From positions 1-64,000 of the forward strand of contig NZ_BGOW01000020.1 in assembly GCF_003851125.1 (NCBI RefSeq): a stretch of 64,000 nt of DNA, in the 5' to 3' direction. Every line of letters begins with the position of its first letter. Position 1 is the first letter of the stretch. This document shows, piece by piece, positions 23,803-35,732 of the stretch. Position numbers and translations under genes: made by a program. This stretch comes from Sulfuriferula multivorans (GTDB taxonomy: Bacteria > Pseudomonadota > Gammaproteobacteria > Burkholderiales > Sulfuriferulaceae). The notes under the pieces were generated by a model that searched no databases, was not told where the DNA came from, and saw only the letters and a list, made by a program, of their open reading frames with translations.

Positions 23803-24000
23803 ATGACCTATGAAGAGTACCTGGACGAAGTCACCACGCTGATTACTGAATTGTTCGGCCTGAGTGATGATGCGGCGATCAAGCTGGTCATGCAGGCTCA
23901 GGCGGATGATTTTTTCGTCCAGCACGATGAAGTCCCGGCGCTGCGCAACCAGGATCAAGCTCAGCGCGATGCAACATCCATTTTCAAGCGCAAGGTGTGA
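23803..24000 (+). CDS. Small acidic protein downstream of smc
   Basis: 65 residues starting MTYEEYLDEVTTLITELFGLSDDAAIKLVMQAQ, which looks like one or two amphipathic helices, followed by ADDFFVQHDEVP and a basic end (IFKRKV). It starts 20 bases after smc, so is likely cotranscribed. It is acidic and without membrane segments. The family is not recognised. Coding is supported by codon periodicity and position, not by a known domain. Confidence 0.6.
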   Translation: MTYEEYLDEVTTLITELFGLSDDAAIKLVMQAQADDFFVQHDEVPALRNQDQAQRDATSIFKRKV

Positions 24001-24161
24001 CAAGCAGCGGTACAAGGTGCGGTAACGCACAGATCACGCCGACTTAAAAAGATAAGCTTGCCAAAAGTTTCGCAAACGAATTTTAATATGCTGAGACAAG
24101 CATTGGCGGTATTGTTGAGCGCAGACGAGCCAGGAAAAAGCCGCCCTGTTCGCCATCCATA

Positions 24162-24189
24162 ACTTCGCATAATGTATATTATGTTAAAT
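24162..24189 (+). other. dif: dif site: XerCD recombination site of the replication terminus
   Basis: The 28-bp site consists of an 11-bp left arm ending CGCATAA (XerC side), the 6-bp centre TGTATA, and the 11-bp right arm TTATGTTAAAT (XerD side). From memory of the Escherichia coli dif sequence, the centre and XerD arm are identical and only three bases of the XerC arm differ. XerC and XerD resolve chromosome dimers here at FtsK. The site is intergenic, 162 bases after the last gene of the smc group and 50-80 bases from the Mu-like element's end. Confidence 0.9.
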
Positions 24190-24240
24190 AATGTAATTTA
24201 TTGAAGCGATGTGGATCCAGCGAGTAAAATGCGTGACGGC

Positions 24241-24282
24241 GGACACATGGTCTGAAACATCGGGACACATGGAATGAAACAT
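24241..24282 (-). repeat. Tandem end repeats, possible transposase-binding sites
   Basis: GGACACATGGTCTGAAACAT (24241-24260) and GGACACATGGAATGAAACAT (24263-24282) are direct repeats with a 22-base period, 18 of 20 bases equal. Read on the minus strand each is TGTTTCA..CCATGTGTCC. The MuA sites R1 and R2 at the right end of Mu are likewise adjacent ~22-bp repeats containing GTTTCA. Similar TGTTTCA motifs in inverted orientation lie at the other end (35238, 35279, 35362). An insertion-sequence end is the alternative. Confidence 0.5.
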
Positions 24283-24345
24283 TCCAAACCGTCTGTCCAT
24301 GTGCAAAGCTACTTAACACCCTGTGCCAAATAGCGCGCAAATAAC

Positions 24346-24368
24346 AAGGCCGAGAGATACTCGGCCTT
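24346..24368. terminator. Bidirectional terminator-like hairpin
   Basis: AAGGCCGAG (24346-24354) and CTCGGCCTT (24360-24368) pair perfectly over 9 bp with loop AGATA. TGTTTT follows on the plus strand. It would stop transcription leaving the tape-measure gene leftward and transcription from smc rightward. Confidence 0.8.
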
Positions 24369-24534
24369 TGTTTTACTGCTACCGCCTGCGCGGCTCTGTG
24401 GCCGTGGTTTGCGGTTTCCCCATGTGTGCCATATTGCGGGCGCATCCAAGGTTATGGCGCACTTCTCGCCTTGATTGCATAGCCCAGCGGACCCCAGTCC
24501 GCTTAAATTCGAATCATTGGTATCGGTTTAACAA

Positions 24535-26391
24535 TCAATGCCGCTTTGCCTGGCTGGCGTTGTGGCCGTTGACCACGGTAGCGACCTGCTTGCCGTCGAT
24601 GTGGATATTGATGGTTTGCTTGGCGTGCGCAATGCCATCGAGCACTTGCTTGAGCTGCTGAAAATCATAGCCCTTGGTGGCATTCACCAGCGAATCCCCG
24701 CCAAACGCGCGCAGCTGCTTGTCGATCTCGGCACGCTTCGCTTTGCGTGCCTCGTCATCCATGCGCTGCTGCTCCTGGAGCTTGGACAAGCGCTGGTATG
24801 CCTCATGTGCCTGATAGGCAGAATAGGCGACCGTCGCTGCAACCGCAACGGGTAGGCCAGCGGCCACCAATGGCAGCGCTTTGGCCGCCTTGGTTGCTGT
24901 ACCGCTGCCGCCAGGCACGCCTGGAATCGCAGGTACGCCGGCGGGCTTCGGCCCCGAAAATAGCCGCCCTATGCCAGCCGCCGCTGTGAATGCGCCAACT
25001 GCAACAGTTGCGGCATACAGCGCAGCAGTGAATCCAGGGAAGGCTTCAGCGCCTTTGTTAACGCCGTCCAGTAAAAAACCAAGCGGCTTATCGAGTGCGC
25101 CCAATGTATCCATCGCCGCCAAAGCTTTCTTATTGCCTACCTGCTCGGCTTTGTAATCCAGGGTGTCGGCAACCGTGCCAAAACTGGTTTCCCCTTCCTT
25201 GCCATTTTCAGCCGTTACCGTTTTTTTGATCTGTCCATACTTGTCTTTTTGCTGAATCATGGCGATCAAGGCCATAAGCGCCTGGCGATCCTGCACGGTG
25301 TTACCAATACCTTTTGCCATCATGAGATCGGCCATCGCACCATAAGTATCGCCTTGCTCTGTCCCCGTTTGCTTTTCGGATTTAGCCCGAAGCTCCAGAT
25401 ATTTCTTGTCTTTTTCACCAACGGTACTGACTAACGCGACAAATGCGTCGAGTGGGTTCATTCCTTTCGCACGTGCAGCAGCCAAGCTGCCGGATAGATC
25501 AATCCCGAGTTTTTTAAAATCTTTGGAAGTATCTTGGGAGTTGATCTTGGCCAGCAGATTAACCAAATTATTGCCCGCCTCATCAGCACTACCCGCAGTG
25601 ATGCGCGATACTTGATTGGCAGAAACAAGTGCTTCAAATCCCTTCATCCCCTTCATGCCCTGACCGCCAGCCAATGCCATCTCTTGAGGCAGCCATTTGG
25701 CCATGTCATTGAGCTCGAATCCGCCCTCCTGCCCGCCCTTGATTGCCTTTGATAACATCGCTGGAATTTGCGCATCTGTAATTCCCATGCTCTGCTTGGC
25801 AGCAATCACGATCTTGGCAAGGTCCTGGGGATCGGCCCCTGTTCCAGTAGCGTATTTTTGCAGCGTTGGCAGCAGGCTAAGCGAGCTGTTAATGCCAGCC
25901 TGGCCCTGACCCATCGCGCCCGAACCGATCAATTCATTCAGTGTTTCCGCCGCCTGTTCGGGCGTCCCGCCACCTTGCTTCACAGCACTGCGAATGGCCG
26001 CATCCATTTTGGATTTACCAGCAATCCTGCCAGCCACATCACGGTCGGAATAAGCAGTATTGGCCATAATCGCCAGGCGACGGTCATAAGCCATCGGACG
26101 TTCAGCGGCGCTTTTCAGTACATAGCCGCCTGCGAATGCAGCAGCACCAACCTGGCCCACTTTTTGTAACACCGAAATAGATGCCTTGGCAGCGCCCTGC
26201 ATGGAACGCAAGGCTGCTGTCATACGCTCGATCGCGGTGGGTTTGATCCGCCTCGTGGCGTTAGCAATCCTATCCATGGATTTCGCCACGTTGCTGGATT
26301 CCTGCTGCACGGATTTCATGGCGGACTTCAAGCCCACGCTCATCTGGTCATTGAGCTTGAGCAATAGCTGCAATTCCAGGTTATTTGACAC
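24535..26391 (-). CDS. Phage tail tape measure protein
   Basis: 618 residues. The start NLELQLLLKLNDQMSVGLKSAMKSVQQESSNVAKSMDRI is typical of Mu-like tape measures. A helical region and the TP901-type core follow (SAVKQGGGTPEQAAETLNEL, GAMGQGQAGINSSLSLL). Two hydrophobic helices lie at ~455-475 and ~505-530. A charged helix and the usual end (NIHIDGKQVATVVNGHNASQ) complete it, so the protein is full-length. Tape measures set tail length and help DNA entry. It starts with GTG at 26391, overlapping the frameshifted chaperone by 11 bases. In Mu it is followed by DNA circularisation and baseplate genes; here nothing follows. Confidence 0.9.
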   Translation of the reverse strand: MSNNLELQLLLKLNDQMSVGLKSAMKSVQQESSNVAKSMDRIANATRRIKPTAIERMTAALRSMQGAAKASISVLQKVGQVGAAAFAGGYVLKSAAERPMAYDRRLAIMANTAYSDRDVAGRIAGKSKMDAAIRSAVKQGGGTPEQAAETLNELIGSGAMGQGQAGINSSLSLLPTLQKYATGTGADPQDLAKIVIAAKQSMGITDAQIPAMLSKAIKGGQEGGFELNDMAKWLPQEMALAGGQGMKGMKGFEALVSANQVSRITAGSADEAGNNLVNLLAKINSQDTSKDFKKLGIDLSGSLAAARAKGMNPLDAFVALVSTVGEKDKKYLELRAKSEKQTGTEQGDTYGAMADLMMAKGIGNTVQDRQALMALIAMIQQKDKYGQIKKTVTAENGKEGETSFGTVADTLDYKAEQVGNKKALAAMDTLGALDKPLGFLLDGVNKGAEAFPGFTAALYAATVAVGAFTAAAGIGRLFSGPKPAGVPAIPGVPGGSGTATKAAKALPLVAAGLPVAVAATVAYSAYQAHEAYQRLSKLQEQQRMDDEARKAKRAEIDKQLRAFGGDSLVNATKGYDFQQLKQVLDGIAHAKQTINIHIDGKQVATVVNGHNASQAKRH

Positions 26392-26865
26392 GCTTTTTCC
26401 GCCTTGTACTGGTGTAGGTTTTAGTATTTCCGTCTGATGACGGATTGCTGCGCGGGCCCGACAGCACGTCTATGATCGCTGCCGCGTGAGCCTCGGTTAA
26501 CAGGTGTGGATCGGGATATCCATGATGACGCAGCACCATCTCTAACTCGGTGTAAGGCTTGAGCTTTGACTCAAGCCTTTCTGCTTTTTTCCAACCTCAT
26601 CCTGCGCGGCGAAGATCGGTTCGATGTCATCTTCTGGCAACGCCAGCAACAACTCGCCTGTAATCTCTTGCTTTTCCAGCGTACCGAGCGATTCAATCTG
26701 TGCGGCCGCCTTGAACATACGCAAGCGCAAATTGGATGATTCGGGTCCGGCGGTTTCGATAGCTTCAATAGCGTCGGCAATCGTCGGGGCACGCATCACA
26801 AAATCGCGATGCGTAACGCCGTCGCGCTCTACTCCAAAATTCAGCGAACCATTGACCGTAATCAT
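26381..26865 (-). CDS. Tail-assembly chaperone made as two products by -1 frameshifting
   Basis: In the zero frame the gene gives 107 residues (26542-26865; ITVNGSLNFGVERDGVTHRDFVMRAP), a Mu-like tail assembly protein. At 26590-26584 lies the slippery heptamer A-AAA-AAG in the right phase. A -1 slip after codon 94 continues through AERLESKLKPYTELEMVLRHHGYPDPHLLTEAHAA to TAA at 26383-26381, giving a 161-residue product. This mirrors lambda G/GT and the paired chaperones of Mu, which bind the tape measure before tube assembly. It is located immediately before the tape measure gene, as expected. Confidence 0.85.
26556..26590 (-). promoter_or_regulatory. Programmed -1 ribosomal frameshift signal
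   Basis: On the minus strand the heptamer AAAAAAG (26590-26584) is followed by a 6-base spacer (CAGAAA) and then a perfect 8-bp hairpin GGCTTGAG-TCAAAG-CTCAAGCC (26577-26556). Phase is ..GGA AAA AAG.., the arrangement that allows both tRNAs to re-pair after a -1 slip. Spacing of 5-8 bases to a stem is standard for efficient bacterial frameshift sites. Confidence 0.88.
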
Positions 26866-27113
26866 TCAATCACCTCGCGTAGCCCAGCCGGGCGAATCGT
26901 AAATTTCTTCATAGTTAAAGCCTCGCTTACCTTGTTGATGATTTCACAGCGAGTGGCCTTGGAATGCTCCACAGACGCCGCAAGACGATCAGCCAAGCTG
27001 GGCCCATCGCCATATAGAAACTTTGATAACGTGGGGTTCCCAAGCTCGGACAGCTGCTTTCCGAGTTGACCAACCGCCGCGAGCTCCAGGTGCAGTCTAC
27101 GGGTGCTGTTCAT
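26862..27113 (-). CDS. Small phage protein, function unknown
   Basis: 83 residues, starting MNSTRRLHLELAAVGQLGKQLSEL and containing LSKFLYGDGPSLADRLAASVEHSKATRCEI. It is probably all-helical, with no membrane segment and no recognised family. It overlaps both neighbours by 4 bases (ATGA at each junction), so it is a genuine link of the late operon just before the tail chaperone. Confidence 0.6.
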   Translation of the reverse strand: MNSTRRLHLELAAVGQLGKQLSELGNPTLSKFLYGDGPSLADRLAASVEHSKATRCEIINKVSEALTMKKFTIRPAGLREVIE

Positions 27114-27631
27114 GCGACAGCACCCACTGCTTCACAGAAGCTGCACCCAGCCACGGTTTGATAAAGGTGGATGCGTCGGAGATGCCCCAAAGCGTTTTGG
27201 CAGGCTTGCCATTCATGCTGCTGTGCCTGGTCAGTCGGCCCATTCATGCCCGCGAGAGATTCAGAGAAACTGGCGTCCCCTTTCGTGTATTCGGCCATAT
27301 GATCAGGATTCCGCTTGAGGTAATCGAATATGTGTCCCATCGCCTCTTTCACTGGCAATTTTTCATGCGCCGCATATTCGTAAACCCACTCCGCCAATTC
27401 AAGTTCTTCCGGCGTGAGTACAACACCATCGGGCAACTTCACGGTGCTCATGTTCCTGGAGCGGCCAAAGGCCCTTCCAATGGCTCTGTCACGTTCCCAT
27501 GCCGCGTCGATTTCGCTTGGCGAACGGCGTTGTACGGAGGCCAGCTTGTCAGCCAGGGCACCGAGTTTGTCTGCATGCTGGCCTGCCGTGAGTTTCTTCT
27601 GCTGGGTCGGCTGGGCAAAGGTCAAGACCAT
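27110..27631 (-). CDS. Phage protein, function unknown
   Basis: 173 residues with AAGGAG seven bases before ATG 27631. The N-terminal half is charged and helical (LADKLASVQRRSPSEIDAAWERDRAIG). The middle has STVKLPDGVVLTPEELELAEWVYEYAAHEKLPVKEAMGHIFDYLKRNP, a compact helical module with an EF-like acidic turn. The end contains two cysteines (GCSFCEAV). No family is recognised. It is coupled by ATGA overlap to the next gene and placed where Mu carries head-tail genes, but it does not resemble them. Confidence 0.6.
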   Translation of the reverse strand: MVLTFAQPTQQKKLTAGQHADKLGALADKLASVQRRSPSEIDAAWERDRAIGRAFGRSRNMSTVKLPDGVVLTPEELELAEWVYEYAAHEKLPVKEAMGHIFDYLKRNPDHMAEYTKGDASFSESLAGMNGPTDQAQQHEWQACQNALGHLRRIHLYQTVAGCSFCEAVGAVA

Positions 27632-27641
27632 GATCCACTCC

Positions 27642-28406
27642 TTAAATCAGCGTAACGCCGCTTGCCCGCAACTCTTCCAGCAAGTCATCAGCGGCTTGGT
27701 TGGTCGCGCCGCTGACGTATGCCAGGGAGTCGCTAAAAATGGAATCCGGCCAGTTCGGATTGAATTGCCCCTCACAAGCGGGAAGCTGAAACACAGGCAG
27801 GTTGATTGGCACGCCGCCACTGATGATTCCTGCCGGTTTCAAGCCCTTGCTCTTGAGCAGCCCATCCAGCGCGGTCAGGCGCAGATAAGCCGCTTTTACC
27901 GCAAGCGCTGCCTTAACATATTCACGGCAAGTGGTTTCAGCCTGGTTCATCACCACGGCGCGAAGAAGGCTCGTATCCCTGCTATGCAGGGCATGCAATT
28001 TCCCCTGGGCTTCTGCCAATTTGCGCTGGAGGCCGGCAACCGCTTGCGACGCTTCATTCGCAATGCGCTTTGCTGTTGCCAAAGCTTCTTGGTGAGCCTT
28101 TTTCTCGGCCTCGCTCTTCGTATCGAAAGCCTGTACCTCGCCGTGAGTTGCCTGGCCGACAGCTACGGCAGCCAATAGGTCTTCACGGGTGCGGGAGAGA
28201 TGCTCGATGCTCGGCACAGCGGCCGCCGCTTCGCGGACTTCTCGCTGCTTGGTGGCGATCAAGTCTTCGAGGTTGATGATGGTGTTGCCCAGGCATTCGA
28301 TATCTACCTGGTGAGCCAGCAGCAGGGAAAGCTCGGGCTGCTTGCTGGTGGCTTTCTGGCCGTTATTCCCGGCCGTTTTCGGTGTCATGTTCATGGGGAT
28401 TCTCAT
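27642..28406 (-). CDS. Coiled-coil phage protein, function unknown
   Basis: 254 residues. Residues ~30-165 are predicted by eye to form a long coiled coil (LIATKQREVREAAAAVPSIEHLSRTREDLL, EAEKKAHQEALATAKRIANEASQAVAGLQRKLAEAQGKL). A globular end follows (GIISGGVPINLPVFQLPACEGQFNPNWPDSIF). Its ATG overlaps the stop of the Mor gene (ATGA); an inner Met five codons on is also possible. No membrane part or enzyme motif is seen. It could be a structural or scaffold-like protein; this is a guess from shape. Confidence 0.6.
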   Translation of the reverse strand: MRIPMNMTPKTAGNNGQKATSKQPELSLLLAHQVDIECLGNTIINLEDLIATKQREVREAAAAVPSIEHLSRTREDLLAAVAVGQATHGEVQAFDTKSEAEKKAHQEALATAKRIANEASQAVAGLQRKLAEAQGKLHALHSRDTSLLRAVVMNQAETTCREYVKAALAVKAAYLRLTALDGLLKSKGLKPAGIISGGVPINLPVFQLPACEGQFNPNWPDSIFSDSLAYVSGATNQAADDLLEELRASGVTLI

Positions 28407-28804
28407 TTTGGTGATTGATTTAAAATCTCTCGGATGCTTCTTTCTGTCAGCCGATACTTGAGGGCAAGTTGGCGGTGCGATATGCCCAACGCGCGATCAG
28501 CAAAAATCAGCGTGTTACGCTGCCGGATAAGCAGCTTGACGCCACGGGGAATTTCCACGGACAAACCGCTAAATTCCCCTGCCAATTTTTGCGCGATTTC
28601 CTGCCCCAGCAATTGGCACAAGGGATGTTCTGGCTTGATCGTGGCCGGTAGGTACAGGCGTGTTCCGCCGTATTGCGTAACCAGCTTGGCGGTGGCTTCT
28701 TCGCCGATAAGCTGACAAACGTCCTGAAAGACGCCAATGTAATTAACTGCCCGGGCTCGGGGTAAAACAAAACTTCGCATGCCGTTCCCATCGCTTCGAT
28801 TCAT
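28403..28804 (-). CDS. mor: Mor-family transcription activator
   Basis: 133 residues. The YGGTRLYLPATI segment (~46-57) is the conserved Mor/C dimerisation strand. The C-terminal helix-turn-helix is RALGISHRQLALKYRLTERSIREIL. In Mu, Mor switches on the middle promoter that leads to late genes. Here it heads a run of overlapping genes (to the tape measure), so it probably sits within the transcript it influences or activates a promoter upstream in 28805-29057. Confidence 0.88.
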   Translation of the reverse strand: MNRSDGNGMRSFVLPRARAVNYIGVFQDVCQLIGEEATAKLVTQYGGTRLYLPATIKPEHPLCQLLGQEIAQKLAGEFSGLSVEIPRGVKLLIRQRNTLIFADRALGISHRQLALKYRLTERSIREILNQSPK

Positions 28805-29057
28805 GGCGGTATTGTTTCCGCATGAGGGCGTTGGGTTAAGGCGGAAATCCTACCGGGAAGGATTTCCGCCTATTGAGGCGGGGAGGATCGGGAAGAGAAT
28901 GAGGACTGGCGCGCCGTGTTTCTGTCTACCACCTACCCTTCCCGGAGGCAGAACCGTCAACGGCGCGCCTTCTCAAAGGCTGGTTTGGCGGGGCTACTGC
29001 TTCGTTAGATTTACTGGTCATCAATCAGAATATCAAGCAATCCCCCCCGCCGGGGGG
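28805..29057 (-). promoter_or_regulatory. Structured leader before the Mor gene
   Basis: 253 bases without a normal gene but with strong structure. A perfect 11-bp hairpin lies at 28840-28870 (GGCGGAAATCC and GGATTTCCGCC). Two GGCGCGCC boxes at 28909-28916 and 28961-28968 lie in partly complementary arms. A GC hairpin (C6/G6) lies at 29043-29057, directly after the stop of the gene before, probably its terminator. A 31-codon frame (28926-29021, minus; MTSKSNEAVAPPNQPLRRRA, ending GKGRW) lies between them and might be a leader peptide. The layout recalls the ash/icd control regions of P4-like prophages; this is a resemblance only. Confidence 0.45.
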
Positions 29058-29555
29058 TCACCGCTTCCCATCACTGTCACTTGCCATTTCCAGGGCACGC
29101 CCAAGATGGCCGTTCACAATTGCCAGCAGCGCATATAAATCATCCCGATTAACCATGTCCAGACCCGACTCATTAGCTGGCACGTACGCGGTCGGGACAA
29201 GCAGGCCCTTGATGGCATTCATCGCGCGGTGAGTTTCATGGGCTGCATCAATGGCGTCAATATGGCGTCTATCAGAGCTTTCCTGCATTTTTTTGCGTTC
29301 CTGCCACTCCAGGTCGGCTTCTGAATTCATCTCGACCAGTATCTCAAGAAGATCTTGTCGCGCTGCGGGATCTCCGTCCGGTATTGCGCTGGGCTGGATT
29401 GATTTGGCTCGCTGCTTGAATTCCAGCAGGTCAGCCAACCCGGTACGGTGGTTGCGGCTGCATTTGTCACCAGCATCTGTAATGCATTCTGGAGATTGGC
29501 TGGCAGAATAAACTGGGGCGTCTGTTTCGGGCGTTGTGGTGGTACGGTCAGTCAT
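29058..29555 (-). CDS. Phage early protein, function unknown
   Basis: 165 residues, Thr/Ser-rich at the start (MTDRTTTTPETDAPVYS), then mostly helical (LADLLEFKQRAKSIQ, LLEILVEMNSEADLEWQERKKMQE, NRDDLYALLAIVNGHLGRALEMA). There is no membrane segment or known motif. It lies between GemA-side early genes and Mor, a region of variable accessory genes in Mu-like phages. A strong GC hairpin follows its stop. Confidence 0.55.
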   Translation of the reverse strand: MTDRTTTTPETDAPVYSASQSPECITDAGDKCSRNHRTGLADLLEFKQRAKSIQPSAIPDGDPAARQDLLEILVEMNSEADLEWQERKKMQESSDRRHIDAIDAAHETHRAMNAIKGLLVPTAYVPANESGLDMVNRDDLYALLAIVNGHLGRALEMASDSDGKR

Positions 29556-29590
29556 GGATATTTACCTGGTAAGTGGTTGTATTTTCCGCT

Positions 29591-29713
29591 TCACGCTATA
29601 AAACGGGTGAACGGAACCGTGTAGGTTGGGTAGACCGGATACAGACCTTCCTCGCCTGTTGCGTTAAAAACGCCAGAAAAGCCCATTAAAGCGTTTTTAC
29701 TGTTCCAGACCAT
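29591..29713 (-). CDS. Possible 40-residue phage peptide
   Basis: A short frame beginning M-V-W-N-S-K-N-A-L-M-G-F-S-G-V-F and rich in aromatic residues (YPVYPTYTVPFTRF). GAGG lies six bases before its ATG. It fills most of an otherwise empty 209-base gap between two early genes on the same strand. There is no homologue I can name; it could be chance. Confidence 0.3.
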   Translation of the reverse strand: MVWNSKNALMGFSGVFNATGEEGLYPVYPTYTVPFTRFIA

Positions 29714-29764
29714 CTCGGCCTCAACCTGTAAAAACACCCCCGTTAACCACCCGTTAAATTGCGT

Positions 29765-30031
29765 CTAATGCGGTGTTTTATTGGCCTCTTGCCTTGGTCT
29801 GGCTATTTCCTTGTCAGCACCCAAACCATGGCCATCTAACACGGCATCAAAAAAGGGCTTGCTGAGGATTTCCAGCAGTTGCGCGATCCCGTCGAAGGTG
29901 CTCTCATCGAGATGATCTTTGTCAACGTTGCGCATTAGGTCGCCCAGTGCGGCCAGCCCAGCAGTGGCGTTTTCCATGCTATAGAACAGTTCGCTGTTGA
30001 TGGATACTTCGTTACGCTTTACTTCACTCAT
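29765..30031 (-). CDS. Small acidic phage protein, function unknown
   Basis: 88 residues from ATG 30031, which has AAGGAG nine bases upstream; the longer frame to 30097 has none. The body is helical and acidic (LFYSMENATAGLAALGDLMRNVDKDHLDESTFDGIAQLLEIL) with a Pro/Lys tail. Family not recognised. It lies 70 bases after GemA in the early operon. Confidence 0.6.
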   Translation of the reverse strand: MSEVKRNEVSINSELFYSMENATAGLAALGDLMRNVDKDHLDESTFDGIAQLLEILSKPFFDAVLDGHGLGADKEIARPRQEANKTPH

Positions 30032-30101
30032 CTTATTTCTCCTTGGTTGCACGTTCGTTTTTTCGTTCAATCCAGTTACCCAATGCTGCAATGACACGCT
30101 T

Positions 30102-30557
30102 TTACTTTTCGCGCTTGTTTTGCTTGTATCTCAGCCACCTTTCCAGTCCGTTCATGATGTTCGAAATGCCGTCACGCGTGAGAAAACGCGGGTTTTCCAC
30201 CTTGGCGATTCTCTTGCAGAAGGTGACAAAGGCGGGATCATCGGGCTTGCCGGTCAAGCCGCATTTTTTCGCCAGCCCCAGGGCGGCGCTCCATTGCCTT
30301 CGGGTGGGCCGATCCGGGCCGCTGCCGCCTGGCGGCGAGGTGACAGCCCCGGCTTGATCCAGTGCGCCCAGGTCGCGCAATTCATCAGCAAGGGCGGATA
30401 GTTCAGCCTCGCTGCAATCCTTGCAGCTGCGCTTGCCGGTGTGCCTTTCCAGCCAGGCGCGGTATAGATCATCCTCCCAGCCAAGGCGCTTTTGGCCGAT
30501 TTTGATAAGCTGGATCAGGCGGTTTTTCCCGGTTCGTTTCATTCCATTTGTCCGCAT
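30102..30557 (-). CDS. gemA: GemA-like early regulatory protein (Mu gp16 family)
   Basis: 151 residues. LIQLIKIGQKRLGWEDDLYRAWLERHTGKRSCKDCSEAEL is the conserved GemA N-terminal module with CxxC. TRRQWSAALGLAKKCGL and FVTFCKRIAKVENPRFLTRDGISNIMNGLERWL follow. In Mu, GemA alters host gene expression and DNA supercoiling. A low-complexity Pro/Gly linker (TSPPGGSGPDRP) separates the two modules. Confidence 0.85.
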   Translation of the reverse strand: MRTNGMKRTGKNRLIQLIKIGQKRLGWEDDLYRAWLERHTGKRSCKDCSEAELSALADELRDLGALDQAGAVTSPPGGSGPDRPTRRQWSAALGLAKKCGLTGKPDDPAFVTFCKRIAKVENPRFLTRDGISNIMNGLERWLRYKQNKREK

Positions 30558-30616
30558 GCTTACGCCCCCCTAACCTTTTCTCTTATCGATTAATGCCGAA
30601 AATTTAACTGGTGGCA

Positions 30617-31627
30617 TCACCAGCCCCTCAAGGTTGATATGTCGATAACGTCGAAATCAAGTAGCGAGCGCTTAAAGCCGGATACCATAGCGCGCAACTG
30701 GCCGGGCCCCGTTCCACGTTCCACGCACCATTCACGCTCTTCCTTGCCCGATACACCCCAGGCTGCCATGACAAGATCAATGTCGTGTTCGGTAACGCTT
30801 TTGACCTCCACGCGCCATTCCTTCATGCGGCTCAATAGCTGATCGTGTTTGCCGCCTGATATGCGCCGGTACACCTCGCCATTGTTGAGTAAGGCAATGC
30901 CGAATAACCCCTTGTCCACATAGCGGCGCAACCCATTCACGATACGAATGCCGTGCTCGAGCTTGGCGTCCGCGAGATGTTGTGCTTCATCAATAATCAG
31001 TATTCCGCCTAGGCCGCGCGTCTTTTCTTCTATGTGGAAATCGATCTCGAAGTCATTCCTTGACTTGTCATGGCGGTACTGACTATCCACATTTGCAGCA
31101 ATCATCGACAAAACAGCCCTGGTCGTCAGCCCGAATTCACTCAACCCAACAGACCAGACAGGGCAATCCAATCCTTCCTCCTTGCGACAGCGGTTTATAT
31201 ATTCATCCAACGCCTGTGTTTTACCCGCGCCAGCCGGTACGCATATATCGACCATCGCCGGTACGCGGCGCGCCATCTTGAAACCCTTGAAAACTGATTG
31301 CATGACACTAGTTTCGACTCGACCCGGATTACGTTTTTTTTCTTCCATGCGATCTGCATCAAGCCCTGCAAAGTATGTTTCCAGGACGCTTTCTATTTTG
31401 TCTGCCATAGACTGATCGCCAATGCGTCCGCGACTGCCATCGCGCCACCATTCGGGATTGGCTGCCCATTTTTCCAAGTGTCCTGCCACAAATGCTGGCC
31501 CGGCTTCATTCGCGATCCGTTCCAGCGTGAAGCCGTTTGATATTTCATCAATCATGCGGTTTTTAAGCCGCTCCCATCGTTCAAGGTCAATTTCCTGTTT
31601 GATCGGATCATCTATTTCAGATAGCAT
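30617..31627 (-). CDS. Mu B-like AAA ATPase, transposition target selector
   Basis: 336 residues from ATG 31627 (AGGAG upstream). An N-terminal helix-turn-helix region (FTLERIANEAGPAFVAGHLEKW) precedes an AAA+ core with Walker A V-P-A-G-A-G-K-T (~residue 135), Walker B LIIDEAQHL (~212) and sensor GIALLNNGEV. The C-terminal domain (MVSGFKRSLLDFD) is small. MuB forms ATP-dependent filaments on DNA, delivers targets to MuA and keeps the element from inserting into itself. It follows A by 84 bases. Confidence 0.9.
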   Translation of the reverse strand: MLSEIDDPIKQEIDLERWERLKNRMIDEISNGFTLERIANEAGPAFVAGHLEKWAANPEWWRDGSRGRIGDQSMADKIESVLETYFAGLDADRMEEKKRNPGRVETSVMQSVFKGFKMARRVPAMVDICVPAGAGKTQALDEYINRCRKEEGLDCPVWSVGLSEFGLTTRAVLSMIAANVDSQYRHDKSRNDFEIDFHIEEKTRGLGGILIIDEAQHLADAKLEHGIRIVNGLRRYVDKGLFGIALLNNGEVYRRISGGKHDQLLSRMKEWRVEVKSVTEHDIDLVMAAWGVSGKEEREWCVERGTGPGQLRAMVSGFKRSLLDFDVIDISTLRGW

Positions 31628-31711
31628 TTGAACTCCTCTCTGTTTCACCAGCGCCAGCGGGTTTCCGTCCCGCAAAACGCACCAAAAAGCACTGCCAACG
31701 CCGTCCAGGTT

Positions 31712-33877
31712 TCAGCCTGTACGGCGTTTTCTCTCGCCTTCCTCCTTTCTTGCATCGTTTTCTTCCTTGATCCGTTGCAACTCTTCGCGGCGGCCTTTCT
31801 CGGCTTCACGCTTGCGCGACGCCTCCTTTTCCGCGGCTTCGCGCCTTTCCGCTACAGCGCGCGCCAAGGCTTCCCGACGTTCCGAAGTCGCGGCATCCGG
31901 CCCGGCGCCTTTCAGCTCAGGAGGCGCGCGCCGGGCTTCGATCAACGGTGCGGACTGCGGGATACCCAAGGGGTTAAATGCTGATCCAGGCGCGGGAAGT
32001 GCCAGTGGCGATGCGGCATTGATGGCCTTTAGGGTGCCCTTGACGGGTTTCATGTACCCATTTTTTGCCTGAACGTGCGCTGCCGCTTGCTCGCTTGCCC
32101 CGGTAAACGGTAGGGCATCAATCGGCTTGCAGTCACATACATGGACATCGCCGTCATACACGGAGACCTGTGCAGCGGGGTTATCCGGGTGATACCAGAC
32201 AGCATATTTTTTATCACGAGCAGCCAGAGACAGGGCCGCGAATTGCTCGCTCCAAAATCGCTTCTTCCCGTATCCCTCAATCTGGAATTCAAATGTCGCT
32301 TCGGCCTTGTCCGGTTTCACCATCTTGACGGCCATCAACAGCAGGCGCATATGGGCAGGATCGGGCTTGCGGATATCGGCGGTCGGCAGCATTTCCGCGT
32401 AAACTTCGGCCGGGGTGCGATTGTTCATGCCGTTGCCACGGTGCTTCTTTTCCATGTTGAAGTGGTGGAGCGCCTCTGCCAGCAAGGCACCAAGCAGCGC
32501 AATCGGCGCGGGCTTTTTCCCGTTGCAGTCTTCCGGTTTGGAAACCGTGTCCTTGCCAACGTAAGTGCCTTGAAACTCCTGGCGCTTGTCGAGATTGTCG
32601 GCAACCCACCTCCAAAATGATTCAATCGGCTTATCTCGCCCCCTGCCCGGTGGCGACCATTCCATTTTTACGCCCATTTGTGTTGCCACGCCCACAGGCT
32701 CAAACGGTTTCACGCCCCAGCGATAGCGGGTTTTCTGTTGACCGGTAAAAGTCTTGTTCGCATACTCCCGGCCGTTGTCGATCTTACATTTTCTCGGCAC
32801 GGCGCCGCAGTTTTCAACCGCATCGCGGAAGCAGGCCATTACTAGTTCACCGCACGGGTCTTTGTAGCCCTTGGCCGATAGCACCAAACGGGTTCGCACC
32901 TCCCGCCATACCACGACAAACGGGCGGCCTGTGCTGCCATCTGGCCATTCACACCTTACGTCCATCCGGCGACCGTCCGATTCCCACATTTCATGCAACG
33001 CAAGGCTGCTGTAATCCCGCTCTACCGTCGGAAAACTCGCCTCTAGCGCCTTTGGTCCCTGCCTGCCCAGGATCACCAGCGGGGCCGGTTCGGCTGCCAA
33101 GCGGCGCGATACCGTTTTGTTACTGGGGATCATCCACCCCTTACCCTCGCCTTCCTTGCGCGCTAGGCGGACAAGAACAGAGGTTTTGGTTTCGCTCGTT
33201 GTCAGGTGCCGTGCCAGAATCCATTCGTAAGCCTCCTCGGTGAATTCCGCGTCCTTACCCTGCCCCACATAGCGCGGGGCCAACAGCGGCAACCAGTTTT
33301 CACGCGGATGCCCATCAACCCGGACGCGATAGCGCCAAAGCGTGGCCTTGGACGCGCCGAATTGCGCCTTGATTGAAGCTACCGCCATTTCAACGGAAAC
33401 CCCTGAATCACGCATTTCATAAAATGAGTCAACGGCAGCCAGTGCTGCTTCGGCGCGGCGCTTAATCTTGCTGCCGTGCTTTTCGTAGGCAGCCCACAAC
33501 AGGCTGTATTCCTCGGCAGACTCGACGATGTTCGGGTTACGGTGGGTTTGCTTCCTCACCAGCGTGGCCACCGGGCCAGATTGCAACGAAACTATGCTGT
33601 TCGGATTGATAAAAGGATTGACCTTCAAAGCTTCGATTGCCTGGCTGGGCGTGCTGGCCTGTTGTTTTGCCCATTCCTGTTGCGCTTTTTTGGTCAGACT
33701 GGAAAGGAGGATTTGGTAACTGCCGCGCCCGTCGGACTCGTCTTTTCTGGCGGTGTATTTGCCGGCTTTGACGTGACGTTGTAGAGTTTTCTTGGAAATG
33801 CCAGAAAGTGAGGCGACTTCACTTGTGGCAAGCCAAACCTCATTACCCTGAATATTTGCGTTATCCATATGATTCAT
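31712..33877 (-). CDS. Mu A-like DDE transposase
   Basis: 721 residues. An N-terminal winged helix (LATSEVASLSGISKKTLQRHVKAG) binds DNA. The RNase H-like core carries acidic residues in ESDGRRMDV (~300), KIDNGREYANK (~366) and DKPIESFWRW (~420), the DDE triad. A beta-barrel follows, then a Glu/Arg-rich C-terminal helix (~650-720) of the kind that contacts MuB and ClpX. The family opens ends and joins them to target DNA. Length and motifs look intact, so the element may still transpose. Confidence 0.93.
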   Translation of the reverse strand: MNHMDNANIQGNEVWLATSEVASLSGISKKTLQRHVKAGKYTARKDESDGRGSYQILLSSLTKKAQQEWAKQQASTPSQAIEALKVNPFINPNSIVSLQSGPVATLVRKQTHRNPNIVESAEEYSLLWAAYEKHGSKIKRRAEAALAAVDSFYEMRDSGVSVEMAVASIKAQFGASKATLWRYRVRVDGHPRENWLPLLAPRYVGQGKDAEFTEEAYEWILARHLTTSETKTSVLVRLARKEGEGKGWMIPSNKTVSRRLAAEPAPLVILGRQGPKALEASFPTVERDYSSLALHEMWESDGRRMDVRCEWPDGSTGRPFVVVWREVRTRLVLSAKGYKDPCGELVMACFRDAVENCGAVPRKCKIDNGREYANKTFTGQQKTRYRWGVKPFEPVGVATQMGVKMEWSPPGRGRDKPIESFWRWVADNLDKRQEFQGTYVGKDTVSKPEDCNGKKPAPIALLGALLAEALHHFNMEKKHRGNGMNNRTPAEVYAEMLPTADIRKPDPAHMRLLLMAVKMVKPDKAEATFEFQIEGYGKKRFWSEQFAALSLAARDKKYAVWYHPDNPAAQVSVYDGDVHVCDCKPIDALPFTGASEQAAAHVQAKNGYMKPVKGTLKAINAASPLALPAPGSAFNPLGIPQSAPLIEARRAPPELKGAGPDAATSERREALARAVAERREAAEKEASRKREAEKGRREELQRIKEENDARKEEGERKRRTG

Positions 33878-33898
33878 TGTGTTTTTTTGTATGTCGCC

Positions 33899-34195
33899 TC
33901 ACTGAGGCGATTGAGGCGACATTAGGGTTGTGGATTTCGCCTCAAGTCGCCTCACGTCGTGGCATGCTTTTCCGGCTTCTGTTTTCCCCTCGTTGAAGCG
34001 TCGCCAAATTTGCCAACCGCGATCATTGCCTGAAAAATAGGCATCGAATTCGACTGTCCCAGCCCGGTAAGGAACGTGGATACGGCGGCCTTCAATCTTG
34101 AACAGCAACACGTCAATAGCCCCCTGGCGATACACGATGCTTCGCTTGTCTCCATGAGCAAGGGCGGCATCCACAATTGCTTCGGCGCGGCTCAT
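33899..34195 (-). CDS. Small phage early protein, function unknown
   Basis: 98 residues: helix AEAIVDAALAHGDKRSIVYRQG, beta-like VLLFKIEGRRIHVPYRAG, and a helical end (GWQIWRRFNEGKTEAGKA). Its ATG overlaps the Ner stop by 4 bases and the gene ends 21 bases before the transposase start. Its place between ner and A is used by small accessory genes in several Mu-like phages. Family not recognised. Confidence 0.6.
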   Translation of the reverse strand: MSRAEAIVDAALAHGDKRSIVYRQGAIDVLLFKIEGRRIHVPYRAGTVEFDAYFSGNDRGWQIWRRFNEGKTEAGKACHDVRRLEAKSTTLMSPQSPQ

Positions 34196-34410
34196 GATTG
34201 CGGCCCCTCGACAATCTCGCCATGTTTGATACCCAGCAAAACTGCGGCTTTGTGACTAACACCAATGCGCGCTTTCCGCCGATCGTTTAGCACTCCGTAA
34301 ACCACGCTAGGCGGTAAGCCGTGATCTTTCGACCACTTTGAAATGCTAATTCCTTTGCTGGCGAAATCTGCCAGCACGTCTTCGCGGGTTTTAAGCTGTT
34401 TCGTTTCCAT
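34192..34410 (-). CDS. ner: Ner-like DNA-binding regulator
   Basis: 72 residues with AGGAGG five bases before the ATG. The helix-turn-helix is GISISKWSKDHGLPPSVVYGVLNDRRKARIG, as in Ner/Cro-type phage proteins. In Mu, Ner shuts down early transcription and represses the repressor gene. It is first in the leftward early operon and diverges from the repressor across the operator region. Confidence 0.85.
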   Translation of the reverse strand: METKQLKTREDVLADFASKGISISKWSKDHGLPPSVVYGVLNDRRKARIGVSHKAAVLLGIKHGEIVEGPQS

Positions 34411-34442
34411 ATAGCCTCCTGTTATGATGGGTAATCACATAA

Positions 34443-34488
34443 TACGCATATGCGTACATTATGTACGAAATGTACGCATATGCGCACA
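34443..34488. promoter_or_regulatory. Paired palindromic operators between ner and the repressor gene
   Basis: TACGCATATGCGTA (34443-34456) is a perfect 14-bp palindrome. A second copy of the core, ACGCATATGCGC within TGTACGCATATGCGCACA (34471-34488), lies about 30 bases away, near three helical turns, on the same face of the helix. The element lies between two divergent regulators, where the phage repressor and Ner should bind. AT-rich -10-like sequence (CATAAT) overlaps the first copy. Confidence 0.7.
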
Positions 34489-34506
34489 TTCGGTCAAGAG
34501 GTTTTT

Positions 34507-35094
34507 ATGCCTGATTTTGGTAAACGGCTAAGGCAAGAGAGGCTGCGCCTTGGCTTCAGCCAAGCAATGTTTGCTGAAGCTTGCGGAATTAAAAGGACAG
34601 CTCAAACAACTTACGAGTCCGGGAAGCGCTCCCCGGATGTGGATTACCTTGAAGCGGCCGGAAATCTTGGCATTGATATTGATTACGTTATATTCGGTAT
34701 TCCAAATCCAGAAACGCCTGTGGATTGTCCGTTTGTTCAGGAACAGCATCTTGATTTGCAATACGTTTTTACGCTACAACATTGCCGGGATCATGCGGCG
34801 GGGGAAGGTTTAACAAGCTCACCTATGGCCGTTCGATGGTGGAAGGCGTGCGATGAATGTCCGAAAAACCCGATTAAGCACGGCCTTCCTATTGCACAGA
34901 CACCAGCGGATATAGACTGGCCTTTGCTCCTGGCATTACTAGAAGGGCTGGAAACGGCATTGCTAAGGGCGGGGCTGGCGATGGTGCCAGCGAAGAAAGC
35001 CCATGCCGTTGTAATGCTCTATCGCGCCTTCAAGGCCAGCGGCAAGGTCGATCAGAAGATCATTGAAGAAGCGGTCCAATTGGCAGCAGGCTGA
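34507..35094 (+). CDS. Phage repressor, XRE-type
   Basis: 195 residues. The N-terminal helix-turn-helix is GKRLRQERLRLGFSQAMFAEACGIKRTAQTTYESGKRSPD, then DYLEAAGNLGIDIDYVIFG, a classic XRE repressor layout. The C-terminal half is an oligomerisation region with a CDECP segment. ATG 34507 has AAGAGG upstream; the frame back to 34450 crosses the operators. It diverges from ner and would hold the element silent. Confidence 0.88.
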   Translation: MPDFGKRLRQERLRLGFSQAMFAEACGIKRTAQTTYESGKRSPDVDYLEAAGNLGIDIDYVIFGIPNPETPVDCPFVQEQHLDLQYVFTLQHCRDHAAGEGLTSSPMAVRWWKACDECPKNPIKHGLPIAQTPADIDWPLLLALLEGLETALLRAGLAMVPAKKAHAVVMLYRAFKASGKVDQKIIEEAVQLAAG

Positions 35095-35441
35095 GAGTTG
35101 CACCAGGTGGTTGTTTGCGTGGTGGTCGAATATGTCATTGCATAGCCAGGCGAACCGCCAGCCGTGCTTAACGGTCACTCTTTGTGGGGTATTTGGCACA
35201 ACCAATAGCAGCAAGCTACCATTTTCATGCTATTTTTTGTTTCATACCGTCTGACTATTTAACCGAAAACCGCTAAAATGTTTCAAACCTTAAAATGCGC
35301 TTACCTTGGGCTGAACTCAATATCCACGGACATCCCGGCTTATCCCTAGTCTTCCCACTTTTGTTTCAAATGATATGTCCCCCCCCAAACACCTGTCTGC
35401 TCTACTGCTTCCGACACTTACACATTACGATTCTTAATACT
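35095..35441. other. Intergenic region: element end and leader of the pigment operon
   Basis: No gene is supported over 347 bases. Three TGTTTCA motifs on the plus strand (35238, 35279, 35362) are inverted relative to those at the other end of the element; the last reads TGTTTCAAATGATATGTCC, close to the right-end repeats. The 9-mer TAAAATGCG at 35291 repeats the one at 24225. A run of eight C (35379-35386) lies 55 bases before the ACP start. The promoter of the aryl polyene operon should be here but I cannot point to it. Confidence 0.5.
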
Positions 35442-35732
35442 ATGCAAGATAATCATAAACCACCTGTATCCAGTACCGCCGAGTTGCAACATGAAGTTGC
35501 TGAACTGATGATTGAATGCTTGAACCTTGAAGTCGCTGCAGATCAAATCTCCGCTGATGCCCCCTTGTACGGTGAGGGCCTGGGTCTGGACTCCATTGAC
35601 GTGCTGGAAGTCGCGCTGATGGTATCCAAGCGTTATGGTCTCCAGCTGCGTGCTGACAGTGCCGACAATCAGCATATTTTCAGCTCGCTGCGCAGTCTTG
35701 CAGACTATATCGCAACGCAGAGAACCCGCTAA
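35442..35732 (+). CDS. Acyl carrier protein of the aryl polyene cluster
   Basis: 96 residues. The phosphopantetheine site is in GLGLDSIDVLEVAL (the Ser ~residue 50). The rest is the acidic four-helix ACP fold (LQHEVAELMIECLNLEVAADQISADAPLYGEG before it). It carries the growing polyene as a thioester. The longer frame to 35295 contains non-protein-like sequence, so ATG 35442 is chosen. It is first gene of the plus-strand operon and abuts the next gene with no gap. Confidence 0.9.
   Translation: MQDNHKPPVSSTAELQHEVAELMIECLNLEVAADQISADAPLYGEGLGLDSIDVLEVALMVSKRYGLQLRADSADNQHIFSSLRSLADYIATQRTR

Follow-up and report, generated by a model that had tools for sequence, protein, structure and literature searches.

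The tail assembly chaperone gene of a Mu-like element in the window, by which the whole 64,000-nucleotide stretch of DNA analysed here is meant, very probably carries a programmed -1 ribosomal frameshift site of the lambda G/GT type. The chaperone gene lies on the minus strand, directly upstream of the tail tape measure gene, as genes of the lambda G/GT type do (Table 1). Its 107 codons open with an ATG at 26865 and close with a TAG at 26544-26542, and this zero frame was found to belong to a chaperone family, with a profile match to phrog_508 (tail assembly chaperone) at E 5.4e-19. The heptamer is read there as GGA AAA AAG, which gives the phase X_XXY_YYZ and fits tandem -1 slippage. In translation, a -1 shift at this point joins 94 residues to 67 further ones in a fused product of 161 residues, and the TAA that ends the extension (26383-26381) falls within the tape measure ORF, which starts with a GTG at 26391. 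The tape measure itself, intact at 618 aa, matched phrog_794 (E 8.3e-130) and the Pfam family PF10145 (PhageMin_Tail), and it aligned over its full length with the tape measure of a related locus, L020. An earlier, sequence-only reading had placed A-AAA-AAG in the right phase of a tail assembly chaperone gene and had derived from it a 67-codon extension, a 161-residue product and an end inside the tape measure start; all of these points were borne out.

Table 1. Features of the chaperone frameshift region and of the element in which it lies (positions in the window; a dot marks a feature to which no strand is assigned).
Feature	Coordinates	Strand	Basis or remark
Zero-frame tail assembly chaperone ORF ('G'-like product), 107 aa	26542..26865	-	phrog_508; homologues adjoin tape measure genes in relatives
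Slippery heptamer A_AAA_AAG	26584..26590	-	In phase, as it is in all 17 loci with this chaperone type
-1 frame extension ('T'-like domain), 67 codons and TAA	26381..26584	-	Matches the profile of the relatives' extensions
Hairpin, possible 3' stimulator, loop 4-6 nt	26554..26579	-	Folding; not conserved in relatives
Tail tape measure protein (618 aa), which overlaps the extension end with its GTG start	24535..26391	-	phrog_794 and PF10145; aligns with L020
Reduced Mu-like element, about 11.1 kb, approximate extent	24241..35381	.	MuA, MuB, GemA, Mor and Ner-like genes; end repeats
Ner-like regulator	34410-34192	-	Within the Mu-like element
MuA	33877-31712	-	Within the Mu-like element
MuB	31675-30617	-	Within the Mu-like element
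GemA	30557-30102	-	Within the Mu-like element
Mor	28804-28403	-	Within the Mu-like element

In the proposed mechanism, most ribosomes would stop at TAG 26542 and release the 107-residue chaperone, while some would slip one base back on the Lys-Lys codons of A_AAA_AAG and read 67 more codons to complete the 161-residue fusion, perhaps aided by a hairpin 4-6 nt downstream. If lambda is a guide, the role of the short form would be to coat the tape measure, and that of the fusion to bring in the tail tube protein. We infer the occurrence and rate of slippage, any stimulation by the hairpin and these roles in assembly from sequence anatomy and from comparison with relatives. Frameshifting by -1 in tail chaperone genes, by -2 in that of Mu and by +1 in some, has long been established (PMC5009743; PMC2628397), and the lambda G/GT frameshift and its conserved counterparts were described by Xu, Hendrix and Duda in 2004, as that work is cited in the same two papers. 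Compared with lambda G/GT, the window differs in its heptamer A_AAA_AAG, its family phrog_508 and its reduced host element. The chaperone gene of phage Mu holds the same functional position in a Mu-type phage, but Mu shifts by -2 and the window would shift by -1 (PMC2628397, PMC5009743). A_AAA_AAG is also the frameshift site of E. coli dnaX (PMC5009743), and a 3' stem-loop is common to both; the dnaX gene is unrelated, and its shift leads to a shorter product (PMC3711429), unlike the longer fusion predicted here. The window thus holds a well-supported yet ordinary example of a known device, and with it a further phage group joins those with conserved frameshifting at A_AAA_AAG in the chaperone gene.

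Homologues were sought in 300 genomes of the host's order and were found in eight other genomes; viral contigs contributed six further loci, and the phage records SuMu, 3927AP2 and ST405-OXA48phi1.1 were related through the tape measure. Read with this chaperone type were 17 loci, namely the window, seven of the other bacterial genomes, the six viral contigs and the three phages, and every one of them (17/17) carries A_AAA_AAG in phase, followed by a homologous -1 extension of 67-94 codons that in most cases has a basic, RRKK-like end. Lys-Lys in these genes could be encoded otherwise, yet AAA-AAG was kept in all 17; the naive independent-codon chance of this is 3.5e-13, an overstated figure, as descent is shared among the loci. 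Fused proteins from eight loci could be aligned over their whole length, and KKA at the junction was invariant in all of them. Among the eight genomes, only G121 (L008/L050), which belongs to the same genus, is without the heptamer. In L050 (1740-1990, reverse complement) the +1 (equivalently -2) frame holds a homologous extension after CTA AAA ACC, an arrangement that suggests either a sequence error or a shift that has changed direction. A_AAA_AAG is likewise missing from more distant members of phrog_508 (L011, L012, L014-L016), some of which have other slippery-like sites. Relatives lacking both heptamer and extension, which had been named beforehand as the finding that would speak against the site, were not encountered.

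In Haemophilus phage SuMu (SuMu_40/SuMu_41; L033, 2880-3460), Mannheimia phage 3927AP2 (genes 39/40; L035, 2864-3450) and Klebsiella phage ST405-OXA48phi1.1 (L034, 2997-3505), the same in-phase A_AAA_AAG and -1 extension stand before a homologous tape measure and join two annotated hypothetical proteins. Judged by their sequences, these pairs are likely single frameshifted genes that were annotated as two; the phages differ from the window in this annotation and in having no strong hairpin. In two further phages, KS10 (L032, 2903-3500) and TJ1 (L036, 2992-3650), an open +1/-2 frame, similar in sequence in both, accompanies the final part of the chaperone gene. The KS10 paper reports no frameshift.

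The comparison bears on two other ways in which the two frames could have come about. Since the element is strongly reduced, the frames might be what is left of one degraded ORF in a dead prophage instead of marking a programmed site; because the relatives, among them more complete Mu-like prophages as well as SuMu, 3927AP2 and ST405-OXA48phi1.1, share the same two-frame layout, this reading is contradicted, and we consider its probability negligible. Transcriptional slippage on the A-run would produce mRNAs that read into the extension, and in some relatives the run does reach 8-9 A's. The window has only six, which is short for such slippage, L003, L005, L009 and L035 are the same or nearly so, and the invariant element is a phased heptamer ending in G, which renders transcriptional slippage extremely unlikely.

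Constraint on the -1 frame was evident in four relatives (L007, L065, L066 and L068), whose 91-nt overlap showed 17/7/38 substitutions at -1-frame positions 1/2/3; the counts are summed over the six pairs of the four, which are not independent, and no p-value is attached to them. Position 3 (wobble) of the -1 frame is position 2 of the zero frame, and because so many of the -1 position-3 changes hit this zero-frame position, the -1 frame is constrained immediately after the heptamer. The extension of the window is, furthermore, homologous to those of the relatives: a profile built from the relatives' extensions only scored it at 25.1 bits, the best of 1000 shuffles reaching 6.1, and a second profile, which includes the window itself, found it at E 7e-18.

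The sequence-only reading had also argued that the extension lacks any start of its own, and for the window this was wrong, as an ATG at 26539 (52 codons) and a GTG at 26536 are present in the extension just after the zero-frame stop; 5' of the heptamer, no -1-frame start was found in the window. The same argument holds in relatives, for no ATG, GTG or TTG occurs in the 71-codon extension of L007, L065, L066 and L068, and in a fifth relative the first start codon comes only at codon 62. Given that ATG 26539 sits in the -1 frame 2 nt past TAG 26542, the window's extension could be imagined as a small gene in its own right, with re-initiation there coupled to termination at the zero-frame stop. 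Such a gene is very unlikely, since its ribosome-binding context is weak, four of the relatives named above have no start codon for one, and the constraint on the -1 frame begins right after the heptamer. In addition, the 15 residues preceding the ATG are homologous to the relatives' extensions, the profile score from ATG 26539 onward being 16.1 bits, to which those residues add 9. For the family, an independent small ORF was rejected on the substitution pattern, the start-less relatives and the profile score. Frameshifting, the explanation given in the sequence-only reading, is instead supported by the heptamer, phase and extension of 16 other loci and by the relatives without a start.

The hairpin that follows the heptamer in the window is AAGGCUUGAGU-CAAA-GCUCAAGCCUU, with 10 Watson-Crick pairs and a closing U-G. 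A perfect 8-bp hairpin after a 6-base spacer had been described before; the hairpin is present and slightly longer than that, and the spacer is indeed 6 nt if measured to the first G-C pair, or 4 nt when two basal A-U pairs are counted. A 64-nt stretch folds at -21.1 kcal/mol, with 5 of 200 shuffles as good, and the 45 nt that follow the heptamer reach -16.9 kcal/mol (z -4.3 against shuffles). Within the 64 kb, only about 11 distinct stems pair perfectly over at least 8 bp (loop 3-8), the hairpin being one of them, and none of the 13 A6G sites in the window has a more stable fold after it. In the corresponding 45 nt elsewhere, z was -2.2 in L003 and between -1.5 and +1.0 in the other 15 loci. 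A conserved 3' stimulatory stem was rejected for the 17 loci, as the fold stands out in the window and little among relatives, and owing to the values of those 15 loci the stem is not part of the conserved signal. Conservation of heptamer and stem in relatives had been proposed as a check, and it held for the heptamer and not for the stem. Close relatives of the window's own chaperone were not found in phage records or viral contigs, and genome contigs gave one weak match.

The hairpin may still raise the shift rate in the window. Read on the plus strand it resembles an intrinsic terminator, the stem being followed by TCTGCTTTTTT, and it was picked as such by a terminator scan. It is accordingly conceivable, although we hold it doubtful, that the hairpin is incidental or serves as an antisense intrinsic terminator and has no effect on the shift. 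An incidental hairpin agrees with the lack of conservation of the stem among relatives, whereas its distance of 4-6 nt from the heptamer is as expected of a stimulator; against a terminator it counts that the T-run is merely the complement of the heptamer, and that no likely plus-strand gene lies upstream there within the element. Because the relatives seem to do without a hairpin, the window provides a small and clean test case of whether the heptamer gains from a strong hairpin.

The element that carries the site is bounded by TGTTTCAnnCCATgTGTCC-like (TGTTTCA-type) repeats at 24241-24282 and 35238-35381. No target-site duplication was seen by eye around it, and an Rfam search of the element gave no match. 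Head, sheath, tube and baseplate genes were not recognisable in the element, which in this respect falls short of a complete Mu-like prophage. When proteins from the tail region and neighbourhood of 13 related loci were compared with 24000-35500, only the chaperone and the tape measure matched, and the other ORFs of the element had no PHROG or Pfam structural match. In related phages the chaperone gene is preceded by sheath and tube genes, and the tape measure gene is followed by baseplate genes; a major tail tube gene upstream of the chaperone, which is the usual and not a strictly defining context, is present in relatives and absent in the element of the window. The missing tube and sheath genes are read as lost by deletion, so that the chaperone gene is a member of the lambda G/GT type within an incomplete module, and the simplest reading of the element is a prophage stripped of most late genes. 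Because the element is without a recognisable tube gene, the site may by now be vestigial and yield no working product, and frameshifting here may have ceased to contribute to a virion.

It was also considered that the 11-kb element is a small transposing Mu-like satellite, which would redirect the tail assembly of a helper phage by its own chaperone pair, made through hairpin-stimulated frameshifting, and its own tape measure; we regard this as very improbable. A search of the window's own genome for the sheath protein of a same-genus relative, made without a positive control, found none and so gave no sign of a helper.

Beyond the genes in Table 1, the element has three minus-strand ORFs without assigned function between Mor and the chaperone (27642-28406, 27110-27631 and 26862-27113). 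The second, the third and the chaperone gene are linked by start/stop overlaps of 4 nt. For ORF 27642-28406 only weak coiled-coil relatives were found, and orf254 and orf173 had no relatives in phages. Between the repressor and the Ner-like gene, a perfect 16-bp inverted repeat at 34445-34484 is probably an operator.
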